Assembly: GCA_017991895.1 (NCBI GenBank)
Contig: JAGOPR010000006.1
Location: 1 to 34,541, forward strand
Origin: Minisyncoccota bacterium
GTDB lineage: Bacteria > Patescibacteriota > Minisyncoccia > Phycocordibacterales > UBA9973
Reading direction: 5' to 3'
Length of the DNA stretch: 34,541 bases
A program made the position numbers and the translations under genes. Below the pieces are notes generated by a model. That model saw nothing but the letters and a program-made list of their open reading frames with translations. It had not been told where the DNA came from and ran no database searches. This document shows, piece by piece, positions 5,035 to 34,541 of this stretch (position 1 is its first letter; the number at the start of each line of letters is the position of its first letter).

Positions 5035-5155
5035 ACTCCTCGGAGTAAGCCAACTTCTTGGCTTACATGTAGGATTCGAAAGACTTTTCGTTACTGCGTG
5101 TACGCGGTCGAAAAGTACCCGCGGTGGTAAACCGAGAAATTCCTACCCTAGGAGT
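5035..5155. other. Highly structured intergenic element, possible ncRNA
   Basis: Nested and adjacent helices fill this gap. The outer helix is ACTCCT/AGGAGT (5035-5040, 5150-5155). Hairpin GTAAGCCAA/TTGGCTTAC (5045-5053, 5058-5066) has a CTTC loop. GTAGGA/TCCTAC (5069-5074, 5141-5146) encloses ACTTTTCG/CGAAAAGT (5083-5090, 5109-5116), which has a GCGT/ACGC tip. The 5' part repeats TCCTCGG and GTAGG-TTCGAA words of the tRNA just upstream, so it may derive from a tRNA copy. It does not fold as a tRNA. No ORF was seen. Confidence 0.5.
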
Positions 5156-12265: not shown

Positions 12266-12893
12266 GCTTTTCTGCCCCTTCGATTAGATACTCCCCAATG
12301 CGTGTCCTACGGAGATTCTTAAGAGTAGCTACTGTGCCAAGCTGTCTGCCAATTTCCTCTGCTAGTGAGCGAATATATGTACCGCTACCAACATCGAAAA
12401 CAATAGTTACGATTGGTAAATCAAAACTTTCAATCTCCGCACTAAATACTTTCATTTCCTTTATTGGTGGAACAACTTCCTGTCCTTTGTATGCTCGTTT
12501 GTAAAGCGGTTTGCCTTTCTGTTTTACAGCAGAAAAAATCGGCACAGGAAGAGCCACTGTGCCAACAAGATTCGCCAGCACTTTTTGCAGTTCATTACTT
12601 GATAAAGCTCCTACTTCTTTTGTCTCAAGTATTTTTCCATCTATGTCACCGGTGTCGGTACGAACCCCTAAAAGAATTTCAGCAATATAGGTTTTCGGAA
12701 GACCAATTAGATTTTTTAACTCCTTTGTTCCCTGCCCAACGCCAATAAGTAGCAGACCACTCGCGTTTGGGTCGAGAGTACCGGAATGCCCCATCTTTCT
12801 GATATTGTGTTTTCTTCTAAGGCGCCGTATTACATCAAAAGAAGTAATACCCTTCGGCTTGTCGACAAGAATAAGTTGCGGTATTTCCTCCAT
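12255..12893 (-). CDS. truB: tRNA pseudouridine(55) synthase, short form
   Basis: TruB makes pseudouridine 55 in the T loop of tRNAs. The 212-residue protein begins MEEIPQLILVDKPKGITSFD and has the catalytic Asp41 in GHSGTLDPNASGLL. These are followed by TYIAEILLGVRTDTGD, QKGKPLYKRAYKG and the C-terminal core FDVGSGTYIRSLAEEIGRQLG. E. coli TruB has 314 residues; this one ends after the catalytic domain and lacks the PUA domain. The ATG at 12893 is chosen over one 12 codons upstream, because the TATACT or TACTAT -10 region lies between them. Its promoter overlaps that of the divergent purH gene. Confidence 0.93.
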   Translation of the reverse strand: MEEIPQLILVDKPKGITSFDVIRRLRRKHNIRKMGHSGTLDPNASGLLLIGVGQGTKELKNLIGLPKTYIAEILLGVRTDTGDIDGKILETKEVGALSSNELQKVLANLVGTVALPVPIFSAVKQKGKPLYKRAYKGQEVVPPIKEMKVFSAEIESFDLPIVTIVFDVGSGTYIRSLAEEIGRQLGTVATLKNLRRTRIGEYLIEGAEKLDN

Positions 12894-12900
12894 ACAAATA

Positions 12901-12912
12901 ATAGTATATAGT
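12901..12912. promoter_or_regulatory. Overlapping divergent -10 elements of truB and purH
   Basis: The plus strand carries TATAGT (12907-12912), six bases before the purH ATG at 12919. The minus strand carries TATACT (12903-12908), nine bases before the truB ATG. The two hexamers overlap, so only one polymerase can occupy the site at a time. Confidence 0.55.
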
Positions 12913-12918
12913 AATCCA

Positions 12919-14526
12919 ATGAAACGCACGGCACTTCTCTCAGTTTACGATAAAACAGGAATAGTCGAGTTCGCAAATAGCCTAAAGTCTCTACCAAATC
13001 AAGAATGGGAAATTTTAGCTTCGGGAGGTACAGCAAAAGTCCTCACTGAGGCAGGTATTCCTGTGACTGACACCGGTTCAATCGTTGGTGGTCCAATATT
13101 AGGCCACCGAGTAGTCACACTATCCCGAGAAATCCATGCCGGACTTCTTGCAAAAAACAATGCGGAAGACCGTGCCGAACTCGAGAAACTTAATATCCGA
13201 TATATTGATCTAGTTTGTTGCGACCTATATCCACTCAAAGCTGAAATTGCAAAAATTGGCTCAACAAAAGAATCTGTTATTGAACAAACAGACATCGGTG
13301 GCCCGACGATGCTTCGTTCTGGTGCGAAAGGCGGGCGCATTACTATTTGCGATCCTACTGACAGAGCAAAAGTTATAGAATGGCTTAAAGCTGGCGAGCT
13401 TGAAAAAGAAAACTTTATTCAAATGCTCCACGCAAAGGCTGAGTTTGTTATCGCTGACTATGTTCTTACCTCAGCACAATATCATGGAGCGGGAATGTAT
13501 GCGGGATTCGACGGAACGATGATTGCAGAGTGCAAGTATGGTGAGAATGCATACCAAACTCCAGCTCGTGTTTATACAAATGGTACAACCGATCCTCTTT
13601 CATTGGATAAGTTTACACTTGTTGCGGGTTCTGCCCCTTCATACAACAACTGGTGCGACGTAGACCGTATGCTTCAAACGGCAACCCATATCGCGGGAGG
13701 TTTTGATAAAAATTATGGGAAAGTTCCTCTCATCGCACTTGCCGTAAAACATGGAAATACTTGCGGAGCCTCTGTTGGCGATAATGCAGTGGAAGTATTA
13801 CAAAAAATGATAATGGGAGACCCGCGCGCAATTTTTGGCGGACTCGTAATGACAAACTTCCCTATCGATGATGCACTCGCTGAAGTATTACTTTCCTACA
13901 ACATGGAAGGAGGCCGCAGAATTCTTGATGGAATAATTGCACCGTCGTTTACAGAAGGAGCAGTAGAACATTTGAAAAGAAAGGGCGACAAGTGTCGCTT
14001 CCTAGCAAATCCCGCCCTTGAGAAAATGACAACTGCAAGCCTTGATACAAATACTCGTTTCCGCTACACACGTGGAGGATTTCTCACACAGCCAAACTAT
14101 ACTTTTGTGCTCGATTTAAAATCTAGTGACCTCGTAAAAAACGGGACTGCTACAGAGGCACAAGAAAAAGATATGCTTCTTGCAAAAGCTATCTGTGATA
14201 CCTCAAACTCAAATACAATTGCTATCGTGAAGAATGGTCAACTCATCGGAAACGGTGTTGGTCAACAAGACCGTGTAAGTGCGGCGAACCTTGCCATTAT
14301 GCGAGCGCAGTCTGCCGGCCATGATACAAATGGAGGAACTGCATCGAGCGACAGCTTCTTCCCATTCCCTGATGCTCCCGATGTACTCATCAAGGCTGGT
14401 ATAAAAGTAATCCTCTCAACATCAGGCTCAGTAAACGATGTGAAATCTATTGAACTCTGTAAGGAAAATAATGTTCCGCTGTATTTAATACCAGACTCAC
14501 TTGGTCGAGGATTTTTCGGACACTAG
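12919..14526 (+). CDS. purH: Bifunctional AICAR transformylase / IMP cyclohydrolase
   Basis: PurH performs the last two steps to IMP: formylation of AICAR with 10-formyl-THF, then ring closure. The 535-residue protein has an N-terminal MGS-like cyclohydrolase domain (about 1-150) with LLSVYDKTGIVEFA, ASGGTAKVL and TDIGGPTMLRSGAKG, then the transformylase domain with KYGENAYQTPARVYT, VKHGNTCGAS (Lys277, His278) and SSDSFFPFPDAPD. The usual LHPKIHGGLL reads LSREIHAGLL and NPCGAA reads NTCGAS, so it is a divergent PurH. The ATG at 12919 fits the promoter TATAGT six bases upstream. It is the only purine gene here on the plus strand. Structured element A begins at its stop codon. Confidence 0.95.
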   Translation: MKRTALLSVYDKTGIVEFANSLKSLPNQEWEILASGGTAKVLTEAGIPVTDTGSIVGGPILGHRVVTLSREIHAGLLAKNNAEDRAELEKLNIRYIDLVCCDLYPLKAEIAKIGSTKESVIEQTDIGGPTMLRSGAKGGRITICDPTDRAKVIEWLKAGELEKENFIQMLHAKAEFVIADYVLTSAQYHGAGMYAGFDGTMIAECKYGENAYQTPARVYTNGTTDPLSLDKFTLVAGSAPSYNNWCDVDRMLQTATHIAGGFDKNYGKVPLIALAVKHGNTCGASVGDNAVEVLQKMIMGDPRAIFGGLVMTNFPIDDALAEVLLSYNMEGGRRILDGIIAPSFTEGAVEHLKRKGDKCRFLANPALEKMTTASLDTNTRFRYTRGGFLTQPNYTFVLDLKSSDLVKNGTATEAQEKDMLLAKAICDTSNSNTIAIVKNGQLIGNGVGQQDRVSAANLAIMRAQSAGHDTNGGTASSDSFFPFPDAPDVLIKAGIKVILSTSGSVNDVKSIELCKENNVPLYLIPDSLGRGFFGH

Positions 14527-14648
14527 AACTTCCAGATACGGCGCATTTCTGTGTTACTTCACTCATTCGCTCCCGCAACGTATTTCTTATACGTCTTGGT
14601 CGCGAGCCTCGATTGTGCCTTGAACTGCATCCGTCTCTGTAAGTTCTA
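14524..14648. ncRNA. Structured element A, copy 1, at the purH stop codon
   Basis: This 125-base element starts with the purH TAG itself. An 18-bp outer helix (14524-14541 with 14631-14648, 16 of 18 paired) encloses a core. The core contains GGCGC/GTGCC, an ACGTA/TACGT hairpin and invariant words such as GCTCCCGCAACGTA and TACGTCTTGGTCGC. A second copy lies at 33931-34056, starting at the guaB stop codon. The cores are about 80% identical by eye, while the outer arms differ but remain complementary. The sense strand is undecided, because G-T pairs support each orientation at different positions. Short ORFs inside do not keep frame between copies. Confidence 0.6.
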
Positions 14649-14656
14649 GAAATAGT

Positions 14657-14690
14657 AAAGCCCCCTTTTTTCGGGAGGCTTTTCTACTTT
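14657..14690 (+). terminator. purH terminator
   Basis: AAAGCCCCC pairs with GGGAGGCTTT around a T-rich loop with one bulged A, followed by TTTTCTACTTTT. It comes eight bases after element A. Confidence 0.8.
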
Positions 14691-27320: not shown

Positions 27321-27356
27321 ATTTTCTACTAACTACTATCTACTTACTACTTACTA
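27321..27356 (-). repeat. TAGTTAGTA-type repeat at the purF 3' end
   Basis: Read on the minus strand it runs from the purF stop codon through TAGTAAGTAGATAGTAGTT-like units to TAGTAGAAAAT. It is the inverted counterpart of the copy at 28799-28836, so purF is bracketed by an inverted pair. Confidence 0.75.
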
Positions 27357-28796
27357 GTTTTTGGGTACCTCCATCGTAAAATCCCCTGTTCGCTCATGTA
27401 AATCAATCGGATACTCCCCTGTAAAACATGATGTTGAGAAACGCTCTTGTGGAAGTCCTGTCGCTTTTACAAGTCCGTCAAGAGAGATGAAGTGAAGCGA
27501 TGTTGCTCCAAGAAATTCGCGGATTTCTTCTACTGTTTTCTGTGAAGCAATAAGATTTTTCTGTTGTGGGGTGTCGATACCATAAAAATCTGGAAAACGA
27601 ACTGGCGGAGATGAAATCAAAAAGTGCACTTCTTTTGCGCCTGCTTCAAATATTGCCTGCACGAGCTGGCGACTTGTCGTACCACGAACAATTGAGTCAT
27701 CCATAATAATGACACTCTTGCCGACAAGGACTTCCGCAAGTGGAGTAAGCTTGAGCTTCACTCCAAGATCACGCGTGTGCTGTTCTGGCTCGATGAACGT
27801 GCGATGAATGTAACGATTTTTTACGAGCGCCATTTCAAGAGGAATACCACTCTCTGCTGAAAATCCGATAGCAACGGGAATTGCTGTCTCTGGAACAGGG
27901 ACCACAATGTCAGCTTTTATTTTAAATTCGCGAGCTAGTTCAACTCCAGAATTGCGACGAACATCATAAACAAGCTTCCCTGCAATTGTTGAATCTGGAC
28001 GAGCGAAGTATACAAATTCGAAAAGGTCGAGCTTTGGTGTTGGTGGGATAACTTGTTCTTGTCTCATACCATGTTCGTCAAACCAAACCATTTCCCCCGG
28101 TTCAATTTCGCGCATGAATGTTGCTCCCATTGATTTGAACGCGCATGATTCTGACGCAACAGCAAATCCCCCATTTATTTTTCCAAGACAAAGTGGTCGA
28201 ATTCCAAATCCATCACGCACGGCAAGAAGTGTCGTCGGTGTGGCGATGACAAGTGCGTATGCTCCTGTAAACAAATGAAGAACTGCCTTAACTGCGTCTT
28301 GTAATTGTTTACCATTGTTCATTTCGTGAGCAATAGCTTCGGTCATGAGCTCAGAATCACTTCGATGATCAAGACGGACACCTGTATTTTTTAAAAATTC
28401 TTTAAGTGCTTCGACGCTCGGCAAATTTCCATTGTGAGCGAGTGCGACGATACCACCAGAAGAATCTTCGTTGTGAGGGTCAGTCTGAACATCGATAACC
28501 TCATCTATGACAATCGGCTGAGAATGACAAAGCATTGAGTCGCCACTTGTTGAATATCGATTGTGTCCAATAGCAAGAAATCCCTGTAGACGTTTTAAAT
28601 GCTCTTCAGTATAGGCAGAAGAAACAAGACCCATTCCACGATGCGTGTAAAGAGCCTCTCCGTTTCCTACAGTAATTCCAGAACTTTCCTGTCCTCTATG
28701 CTGGAGAGAAAACAAACCGAAAAATGAAAGACGAGAGACATCTAATCCCTTGCCATAGATTCCGAATATTCCGCATTTTTCTCCAAGATGTTCCAT
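27354..28796 (-). CDS. purF: Amidophosphoribosyltransferase
   Basis: PurF makes 5-phosphoribosylamine from PRPP and glutamine, the committed step of the pathway. The 480-residue protein has a short propeptide (MEHLGEK) before the nucleophile Cys8 in CGIFGIYG. It then shows LQHRGQESSGI, GHNRYSTSG, HNGNL and DHRSDSELM in the glutaminase domain, and VIIMDDSIVRGTT as the PRPP loop. It is B. subtilis-like in sequence. Two of the four iron-sulfur Cys positions look replaced, however: PDFYGID where PCFYGID is usual, and STSCFTG where CxxCFTG is usual. An intact 4Fe-4S cluster is unlikely. Confidence 0.96.
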   Translation of the reverse strand: MEHLGEKCGIFGIYGKGLDVSRLSFFGLFSLQHRGQESSGITVGNGEALYTHRGMGLVSSAYTEEHLKRLQGFLAIGHNRYSTSGDSMLCHSQPIVIDEVIDVQTDPHNEDSSGGIVALAHNGNLPSVEALKEFLKNTGVRLDHRSDSELMTEAIAHEMNNGKQLQDAVKAVLHLFTGAYALVIATPTTLLAVRDGFGIRPLCLGKINGGFAVASESCAFKSMGATFMREIEPGEMVWFDEHGMRQEQVIPPTPKLDLFEFVYFARPDSTIAGKLVYDVRRNSGVELAREFKIKADIVVPVPETAIPVAIGFSAESGIPLEMALVKNRYIHRTFIEPEQHTRDLGVKLKLTPLAEVLVGKSVIIMDDSIVRGTTSRQLVQAIFEAGAKEVHFLISSPPVRFPDFYGIDTPQQKNLIASQKTVEEIREFLGATSLHFISLDGLVKATGLPQERFSTSCFTGEYPIDLHERTGDFTMEVPKN

Positions 28797-28798
28797 AA

Positions 28799-28836
28799 AA
28801 TAGTAAGTAGATAGTAGTTAGTAATTAGTAGAAAAT
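28799..28836 (+). repeat. TAGTTAGTA-type repeat at the purF 5' end
   Basis: Starts two bases upstream of the purF start codon and reads TAGTAAGTAGATAGTAGTTA-like units into TAGTAGAAAAT. It is inverted relative to the copy at the purF 3' end. Confidence 0.75.
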
Positions 28837-28847
28837 TCAAACCTAGG

Positions 28848-32619: not shown

Positions 32620-33918
32620 TTATTTTTTAACGACGATCATCTCTGTACGAGCGGGACCGGTCGAAATTATAGAAATGGGTACGCCTACGATACGTTCAAT
32701 GTGTGCAAGGTATTTTTTTGCTTCGTCTGGTAATTCTTTTTCGTTCTGTGCTCCTCGGATTGTAGTCTTCCATCCTTTGAAATGTTCATAATTGGCAACA
32801 ATCTTACTTCCCTCTGTTTCAAAAGGCATAGTTGTGACAGTCTTATCACCTATCTGGTATGAAGTAACAACTGGAATATCATCACACATAGATAGAATAT
32901 CGAGCTTTGTGAGGGCTATTTCTGTAACACCCGAAAGAAGAACTGCGTGTCGGAGAGCTACGAGGTCGAGCCATCCACATCCTCGAGGACGTCCGGTAGT
33001 AGCTCCGTACTCTCCACCCCATTCGCGAAGTTTTGGTTCCATTTCTTCATTTGCGCGAGATGGAAACGGTCCACCACCAACACGTGTTGCATAAGCTTTT
33101 GAAATTCCGATAACACGTCCGATTTTCTGAGGAGCTACTCCTAGGCCTGTACAGACTCCTGAGGCAAGTGTGTTACTTGAAGTAACAAACGGATATGCGA
33201 AACCGTGATCGATGTCGAGCATAGAGCCTTGAGCTCCTTCACCAAGAATTTTTTTATTTAGTGCGAGCTGTTCGTGAACAAAGTTTGAACATTCGACAAA
33301 TTTGTATGTCTTTAGATATTCGATGCAATCAAAAAAATCTTTTTCATTCTTTGCAAAAAGTTCTGAGTCGATTTTAAAATTCATTGCAGACAAGAGCATC
33401 TTATGGTGCTCAGTAAGAACTTTGTATCGATCCATGAAGTCAGCTTCAAAAATGTAACCGCTTCGAATACCGAGGCGTCCTACCTTGTCCATGTATGTTG
33501 GTCCGATACCACGAAGAGTTGTCCCGATTTTGCCAACACCCTTGCTTTCTTCAGTCGCCTTATCGAGTAGCTTGTGAGTTGGAAGTACGAGATTTGCCTC
33601 TTTGGCAATGACAAGACGCTTTCTCGCGCTTGGAGAAAAATTCTCAACATTATCCATTTCTTCTTTAAAACTCACTGGATCTAGCACGACATTGGCACCG
33701 ATAAGATTCATTGGAGCGCATAAAATACCAGATGGAACTGTGTGCAAAATAACAGTCTGATCTCCAGCTGTTACTGTATGTCCTGCATTCGCGCCACCCT
33801 GAAAACGTGCAACGAGATCGTACTCACTTGCAATGGCGTCAACAATTTTTCCTTTTCCTTCATCTCCCCACTGTAACCCTAACACTACGTCGATTTTTGC
33901 TTCGTTGTTGTTATTCAT
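32620..33918 (-). CDS. purA: Adenylosuccinate synthetase
   Basis: PurA joins IMP and aspartate with GTP, the first step from IMP to AMP. The 432-residue protein has the P-loop GLQWGDEGKGK with Asp19, ARFQGGANAGHTV with His47, TLRGIGPTYMDKVGR, EGAQGSMLDIDHG, SSNTLASGVCTGLG, GPFPSRANEE and GATTGRPRGCGWLD. The length is normal. PurB, at 15990, completes the branch to AMP. Upstream lies element A copy 2 and then guaB, so the two enzymes that compete for IMP are neighbours on one strand. A TATAAA lies four bases before the start. Confidence 0.97.
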   Translation of the reverse strand: MNNNNEAKIDVVLGLQWGDEGKGKIVDAIASEYDLVARFQGGANAGHTVTAGDQTVILHTVPSGILCAPMNLIGANVVLDPVSFKEEMDNVENFSPSARKRLVIAKEANLVLPTHKLLDKATEESKGVGKIGTTLRGIGPTYMDKVGRLGIRSGYIFEADFMDRYKVLTEHHKMLLSAMNFKIDSELFAKNEKDFFDCIEYLKTYKFVECSNFVHEQLALNKKILGEGAQGSMLDIDHGFAYPFVTSSNTLASGVCTGLGVAPQKIGRVIGISKAYATRVGGGPFPSRANEEMEPKLREWGGEYGATTGRPRGCGWLDLVALRHAVLLSGVTEIALTKLDILSMCDDIPVVTSYQIGDKTVTTMPFETEGSKIVANYEHFKGWKTTIRGAQNEKELPDEAKKYLAHIERIVGVPISIISTGPARTEMIVVKK

Positions 33919-33930
33919 ATCGTTTATATC

Positions 33931-34056
33931 TAGAAATTAAGAAAATGGATGCAGTTCGAGGCGCGAGTAAGGCTTGCGACCAAGACGTACTTTGAGGTAC
34001 GTTGCGGGAGCAAACGAGCGATGCAACGAAGAAATGCGCCATTTGCTTATTTTCTA
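33931..34056. ncRNA. Structured element A, copy 2, between guaB and purA
   Basis: This 126-base element begins on the base after the guaB TGA. The outer 18-bp helix (33931-33948 with 34039-34056, 16 of 18 paired) has a different sequence from copy 1 but the same length and the same TAGAA/TTCTA ends. The core conserves the GGCGC/GCGCC helix and the ACGTAC/GTACGT hairpin (ACGTAT/ATACGT in copy 1, a compensated change). It fills nearly all of the 138-base guaB-purA gap, so it would lie in a guaB-purA transcript. Confidence 0.6.

Positions 34057-34541
<485 letters not shown>

Follow-up and report, generated by a model that had tools for sequence, protein, structure and literature searches.

The 125-nt palindrome that begins at the stop codon of purH in the DNA studied here is probably a non-autonomous, MITE-like mobile DNA element of the Patescibacteria, whose arms are kept complementary as DNA and whose sense copies at stop codons are retained. 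Patescibacteria have very small genomes; despite this, about one in three of the genomes sampled from the order carries this putatively mobile hairpin family, often in multiple copies. Covariation is usually assumed to mean RNA. The family provides a natural case in which three causes of covariation can be told apart: selection may act on RNA or on folded DNA, or template-switch repair may be at work. It is also a warning that covariance-model searches can label a transposon as an RNA family.

Two copies of the palindrome in one contig

The window, i.e. the whole stretch of 34,541 nucleotides that was analysed, carries two copies of the element, A and B, which lie behind purH and guaB, respectively:

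12805..14526, + strand: purH ORF; start codon as given by the ORF tool, the true start being probably downstream; its stop codon is the element's first three bases
14524..14648, + strand: element copy A, imperfect palindrome of 125 nt (covariance-model score 130.4; fold compared with shuffles; recounted)
14524..14539, + strand: copy A, 5' arm: degenerate terminal inverted repeat that opens with the purH stop TAG
14540..14549, + strand: left core end of copy A, conserved, GGCGCATTTC
14570..14603, + strand: apical part of copy A, conserved, CTCCCGCAACGTA...TACGTCTTGGTCGC; hairpin with 2x2 internal loops
14622..14632, + strand: right core end of copy A, conserved, GAACTGCATCC
14633..14648, + strand: 3' arm of copy A; 16/18 pairs with the 5' arm, two inner G-C pairs included
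14657..14682, strand not assigned: separate stem with T-rich flanks, terminator-like, 3' of copy A
32620..33918, - strand: purA (adenylosuccinate synthase), starting 12 nt past copy B
33931..34056, - strand: element copy B (126 nt), guaB-purA intergenic (covariance-model score 137.9; fold compared with shuffles)
34057..34527, - strand: 3' part of guaB (IMP dehydrogenase), whose stop TGA directly precedes copy B

The identities of purH (NF002049), IMP dehydrogenase and purA were confirmed. The purH stop TAG occupies 14524-14526 and the guaB stop TGA 34057-34059, directly before the beginning of copy B. A preliminary description of this DNA had given sizes of 125 and 126 nt and a start at the purH stop, which proved exact to the base on recount. 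It had also counted about 75 matches over 94 core positions and outer arms that had diverged while keeping 16 of 18 pairs each; the recount gives 75 of 93-94 positions, arm identities of 8/16 (5') and 10/16 (3'), and 16/18 pairs in each copy. Both copies fold better than all 200 of their shuffles (z -5.1 and -3.7). Because a separate terminator-like stem follows at 14657..14682, copy A is not the sole candidate terminator after purH.

The window also contains another dispersed short intergenic repeat, built on AGTAGTTAGTAG, with several copies in both orientations (1243-1290, 2668-2715, 27321-27364 and 28793-28845).

A family spread through one order

BLASTN detects 11 good copies in the source genome; among five congeners, two together yield a further 8. 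A covariance model, which the preliminary description had proposed as a check, was built from 17 copies and matches 22 sequences in the 0.75-Mb source genome, 20 of which pass a stricter family-wide scan; of the options first put forward, that of a dispersed repeat is upheld. With the same type of search, the element is found in 17/147 genomes at the family level and, at the order level, in 133/397 sampled genomes belonging to 66/180 genera. This uneven occurrence, with several copies per carrier, speaks for a mobile element. A DNA pattern drawn from the core matches 76 stretches among 84,980 species genomes, and those matches that carry taxon names are all from Patescibacteria (Nomurabacteria, Taylorbacteria, Harrisonbacteria and Parcubacteria). 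Viral contigs gave no match to the element, hence no sign of viral carriage. In agreement with the initial statement that no described family was known, no Rfam family matches the element, either at the gathering score or at a relaxed threshold, and a search of the open-access literature returned no paper on CPR MITEs or on the terminal-repeat word. The 22 genome matches, together with a covariation that exceeds that of shuffles, rule out a chance origin of the structure.

Three source-genome copies include additional inner sequence (L113 2999-3200, L106 9207-9333 and L114 3094-3306), and two of them hold a second shared palindrome, AAGCTGTACACCTT...CAAGGTCTTGCGAAGCT. Elsewhere, a copy lies directly past the stop codon of a transposase gene, near or within another insertion sequence (L380 2355-2478).

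Ends, target duplications and empty sites

Genomes with young copies reveal a terminal inverted repeat of 13 bp at the ends of the element, TAGGACTTACGCA...TGCGTAAGTCCTA. When at most one mismatch is allowed, TAGGACTTACGCA has 62 and 50 matches in two genomes, compared with 1-2 for the reversed pattern. The flanks of 114 copies include an exact 5-bp target duplication in 17 cases, whereas 0.6 are expected from shuffles, and all other duplication lengths are at chance level. The preliminary description had named terminal inverted repeats and target duplications, as typical of a transposable element, among the findings that would refute its reading; relatives with young copies show both, the duplications being exact and 5 bp long. 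The idea of a TA duplication, as in IS630-like elements, was abandoned since only 5-bp duplications exceed chance. Furthermore, empty sites are found: in relatives that lack the element, the orthologous genes stop at the same codon and are followed by a short intergenic region devoid of it, and most orthologous genes in the congeners have no element. At L139 and L148, the 4-5 nt extra beside the element mismatch the opposite side.

The age of the copies differs among genomes. Copy pairs with cores at least 95% identical share about 84-93% of their arms, and two genomes display a recent amplification with near-identical arms. Core and arm conservation is.86 and.86 in Greene1014_15 and.95 and.86 in Taylorbacteria RIFCSPLOWO2_12_FULL_43_20; in the window's genus, it is.68-.88 for the cores and about.5 for the arms (.88 and.51 in G001). 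In the source genome, the copies are considered old because their target duplications have been lost and their arms have diverged, and the copies of this genus as a whole appear from these comparisons to be older, their arms having drifted but remained paired. Several observations fit the MITE-like reading less well. Neither copy A nor copy B retains a target duplication. Moreover, in the window's genus the arms diverge far faster than the cores, which simple decay does not explain. Finally, the last codons of glyA and of the gene at L130 lie within the 5' arm. In these two cases the 5' arm is partly made of coding sequence, to which the 3' arm is complementary; simple insertion does not account for them, and they suggest a rewriting of the arms after insertion. 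They also prompted the idea that arms derive from the target, each being a copy of the insertion site, which was rejected as a general rule, since arms are common to recent copies and missing from empty sites.

The same 13-bp ends also surround unrelated palindromic interiors in two genomes (L290-L308, genomes G147 and G148), among them the common palindromes TGTCATTCCCGCGAAGGCGGGAATCCAG and CTTTGCGAGGTACTCCGAAGCAATC...GCTCGCAATGACG, which looks like a single pair of ends serving many hairpin cargoes. At L283 (437-460), the terminal repeats TAGGACTTACG-CACGTAAGTCCTA are joined bare, their interior being absent, perhaps as the footprint of an excision or a deletion.

The strand under constraint and the origin of covariation

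Among the 17 copies of the model, 92.1% of the cells are paired and 26/39 pairs have changed on both sides, which answers an early proposal that covarying pairs be sought. None of 500 shuffles reaches this level of covariation, which is lost when the partner is slid. The borders of the palindrome are sharp, positions inside being mostly paired and those outside being paired at chance level. Compensatory changes in the arms are also found at the same locus across species (L140/L147, L138/L155 and L131/L137), whereas the internal mismatches TC/TC, CA/CT, T/C and C/AT are nearly invariant.

In a selected sense-strand RNA helix, G.U is expected above A.C, and an A.C on the sense strand corresponds to a G.T/U on the antisense strand. 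This expectation of sense-strand selection fails in the arms, where departures from pairing on the sense strand amount to 59 G.U and 118 A.C, an excess of A.C that is partly shared by descent (pair 13 of the arm pair table) and that counts to this extent less for the MITE-like reading. Of the two strands, the antisense one is the better folder in 174/179 copies under DNA parameters and in 168/179 under RNA parameters, far more than a composition control would give, and also in copies A and B. Arm pairing does not differ between copies located at stop codons and the others. Because of these three observations, the constraint appears to bear on bottom-strand DNA and not on mRNA. Of the first interpretation, the covarying structure stands and the option of a 3'-UTR RNA is not supported.

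Covariation could also arise without selection, if polymerase template switching between the arms kept them complementary; as an account of the covariation this is possible, if doubtful, and is a sub-hypothesis compatible with the MITE-like reading, so that the two do not exclude each other. Passages of PMC8794818 and PMC8604942 describe template switching as homogenizing the arms of inverted repeats and mimicking compensatory change. The glyA-type cases, in which the 3' arm mirrors coding sequence, and the lack of preference for G.U agree with it, but the internal mismatches that flank the arms remain nearly invariant and uncorrected, and the asymmetry of A.C over G.U is not predicted. Template switching may nevertheless contribute to the complementarity of the arms.

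If the element is indeed a MITE-like palindrome, an enzyme encoded elsewhere would cut AT-rich targets with a 5-base stagger and insert it. Arm complementarity would then be maintained as DNA, either because mobility requires a folded bottom strand, which is selected for, or because one arm is repaired from the other on the hairpin template, or for both reasons. In compact genomes, the insertion spots that survive would mostly be those directly past stop codons. Sense copies, which leave the weaker-folding strand in the mRNA, would persist because expression would suffer from a stronger hairpin at the stop codon.

Position and orientation at gene ends

The initial observation that the element begins exactly at a stop codon holds generally. 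Indeed, the stop codon of an upstream gene in sense orientation lies -14 to +2 nt from the 5' edge in 79/170 copies, and the mirror case is found in 9 (p = 4e-15 for the orientation bias, copies being treated as independent). For 28 copies the stop is at exactly -3, i.e. the first triplet of the element is the stop codon. In a second sample, of 66 copies from 16 genomes, 32 cases were sense and 4 antisense. In the source genome, 19/22 copies begin at a sense stop codon, whereas 4-9% are expected; their host genes include guaB, purH, polA, a PfkB-type kinase gene, glyA, aspS, folD, ribBA, gyrB, glmS, proA, ychF and others (names read from protein sequences, those of the window being confirmed separately). 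Neighbouring genes had been singled out at first as a point to check: the upstream genes are full-length housekeeping genes, and those comparable with congeners have normal C-termini. In the genomes with young copies, 6/31 copies are at sense stops and 2 at antisense ones. The difference between copies with a target duplication (4/17 at sense stops) and without (46/97) is suggestive only (Fisher p 0.11). None of the copies away from stop codons adjoins a tRNA gene, so that insertion next to tRNAs was set aside for them.

This placement is partly explained by the compactness of the genomes and by 5-bp targets that are AT-rich. A blind transposon does not predict the orientation bias; for what remains, the likeliest cause that we infer is the retention of harmless sense copies, with the weaker hairpin in the mRNA, targeted insertion or a function at the 3' end being possible alternatives. 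REPs located at most 15 nt from a stop codon can lower translation in Escherichia coli (PMC12306157), and selection against the stronger hairpin is therefore plausible. Placement at stop codons is the truly unusual feature of the element and is still without a full explanation; being about nine times commoner in sense than in antisense, it makes insertion targeting and survival testable against each other.

A more functional explanation would be that MITE copies have been domesticated as RNA hairpins of the 3' end and kept at the stop for the mRNA (ribosome stalling, protection or processing), as in E. coli REPs, which offer a precedent (PMC12306157). The frequency of sense stops in the source genome and the orientation bias over the 170 copies speak for it, as do the full-length housekeeping genes upstream and the compensatory changes at L140/L147, which occur in related species whose downstream flank is hardly alignable. 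It is unlikely, since pairing is kept equally well away from stop codons, the sense strand does not favour G.U over A.C and is the weaker-folding one, the element is absent from most congener orthologues and a terminator-like stem is already present after purH.

That the element is an intrinsic terminator with the core in its loop is hardly credible: one related genus has T-rich 3' arms after a G+C stem, and in a relative the corresponding position is taken by a plain terminator, AAAAAAATGGCC-TTAT-GGCCATTTTTTT, but the source genome lacks T-rich arms, and separate terminator-like stems lie behind several copies. At L143 (about 5090-5120), a plain intrinsic terminator occupies the position at which the sisters L138 and L155 carry the element, its 3' arms being T-rich; at this locus, the element may have turned into a terminator or taken the place of one.

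Candidate enzymes

Among the sampled terminal-repeat pairs and DDE_Tnp_1 genes, a partial sampling, no autonomous relative with the same ends was found, and the lack of an autonomous copy or of a transposase with this terminal repeat counts against the MITE-like reading. MITEs usually have such a relative, although it need not reside in their own genome. The ORFs between terminal-repeat pairs and the DDE_Tnp_1 genes do not fit as autonomous partners; the latter are present in three of six genomes and lack the element's ends. The source genome carries one gene encoding a Y1/RAYT-like transposase (L023 1273-1968), and RAYT homologues occur in 100/147 genomes of the family, with up to 14 per genome. 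A RAYT/REP link was discarded: the element-rich genomes G002 and G023 have no RAYT, and no element lies within 1.5 kb of 30 RAYT genes.

The 0.75-Mb genome also encodes four XerC/D/A-like tyrosine recombinases of 309-332 aa:

L376, 1979-2908: Xer-like recombinase gene
L377, 10144-11142: Xer-like recombinase gene
L378, 1605-2585: Xer-like recombinase gene
L379, 11366-12337: Xer-like recombinase gene

They would suit an attC-like single-strand recombination site, the bottom strand of which folds and is joined to gene ends by a tyrosine recombinase, orientation behind stops being thereby fixed. Sense placement at stops, the preference for the bottom strand and internal loops that are conserved while their sequence varies agree with such a site, and the attC features at issue are those described in passages of PMC2727003. 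This proposal is nonetheless very improbable. The 5-bp target duplications and long terminal repeats do not fit; the R-box AAC/GTT is not invariant, several pair types being found at these positions; cassette arrays are absent, the neighbours being housekeeping genes; and the Xer-like recombinases stay below the cut-off for integron integrases (TIGR02249, 106-135 bits for a cut-off of 265). A wider version, in which an order-wide family of DNA hairpins would be delivered to stops in fixed orientation through structure rather than sequence, by attC-like single-strand insertion without any integron, is quite improbable as well; if it were true, gene ends across a Patescibacterial genome would carry recombination-competent sites.

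Comparison with known systems

With the structured RNAs of Rfam, the element has strong covariation in common but matches no family. It resembles the REP/REPIN and RAYT systems by its dispersed hairpins near stops and by the RAYT-like gene of the source genome; however, RAYT genes neither co-occur with the element nor adjoin it, and REPs are characterized neither by 5-bp duplications nor by long terminal repeats. Integron attC sites are likewise imperfect palindromes whose bottom strand is favoured (here, a folding preference), which conserve structure over sequence and which lie in sense behind stops. Unlike them, the element has target duplications and lacks an invariant AAC/GTT box, a cassette array and an integron integrase above cut-off. 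Bacterial MITEs such as ERIC/RU-1, palindromes of about 127 bp from enterobacteria, share with it size, intergenic dispersal, terminal inverted repeats, target duplication and a non-coding nature. No sequence kinship with ERIC/RU-1 is seen, and the element differs from them by arms that covary between copies and by its location at stop codons in one orientation. The traits by which MITEs are recognized, i.e. shared terminal inverted repeats, a duplication of fixed length (5 bp) and empty orthologous sites, are found in this family.
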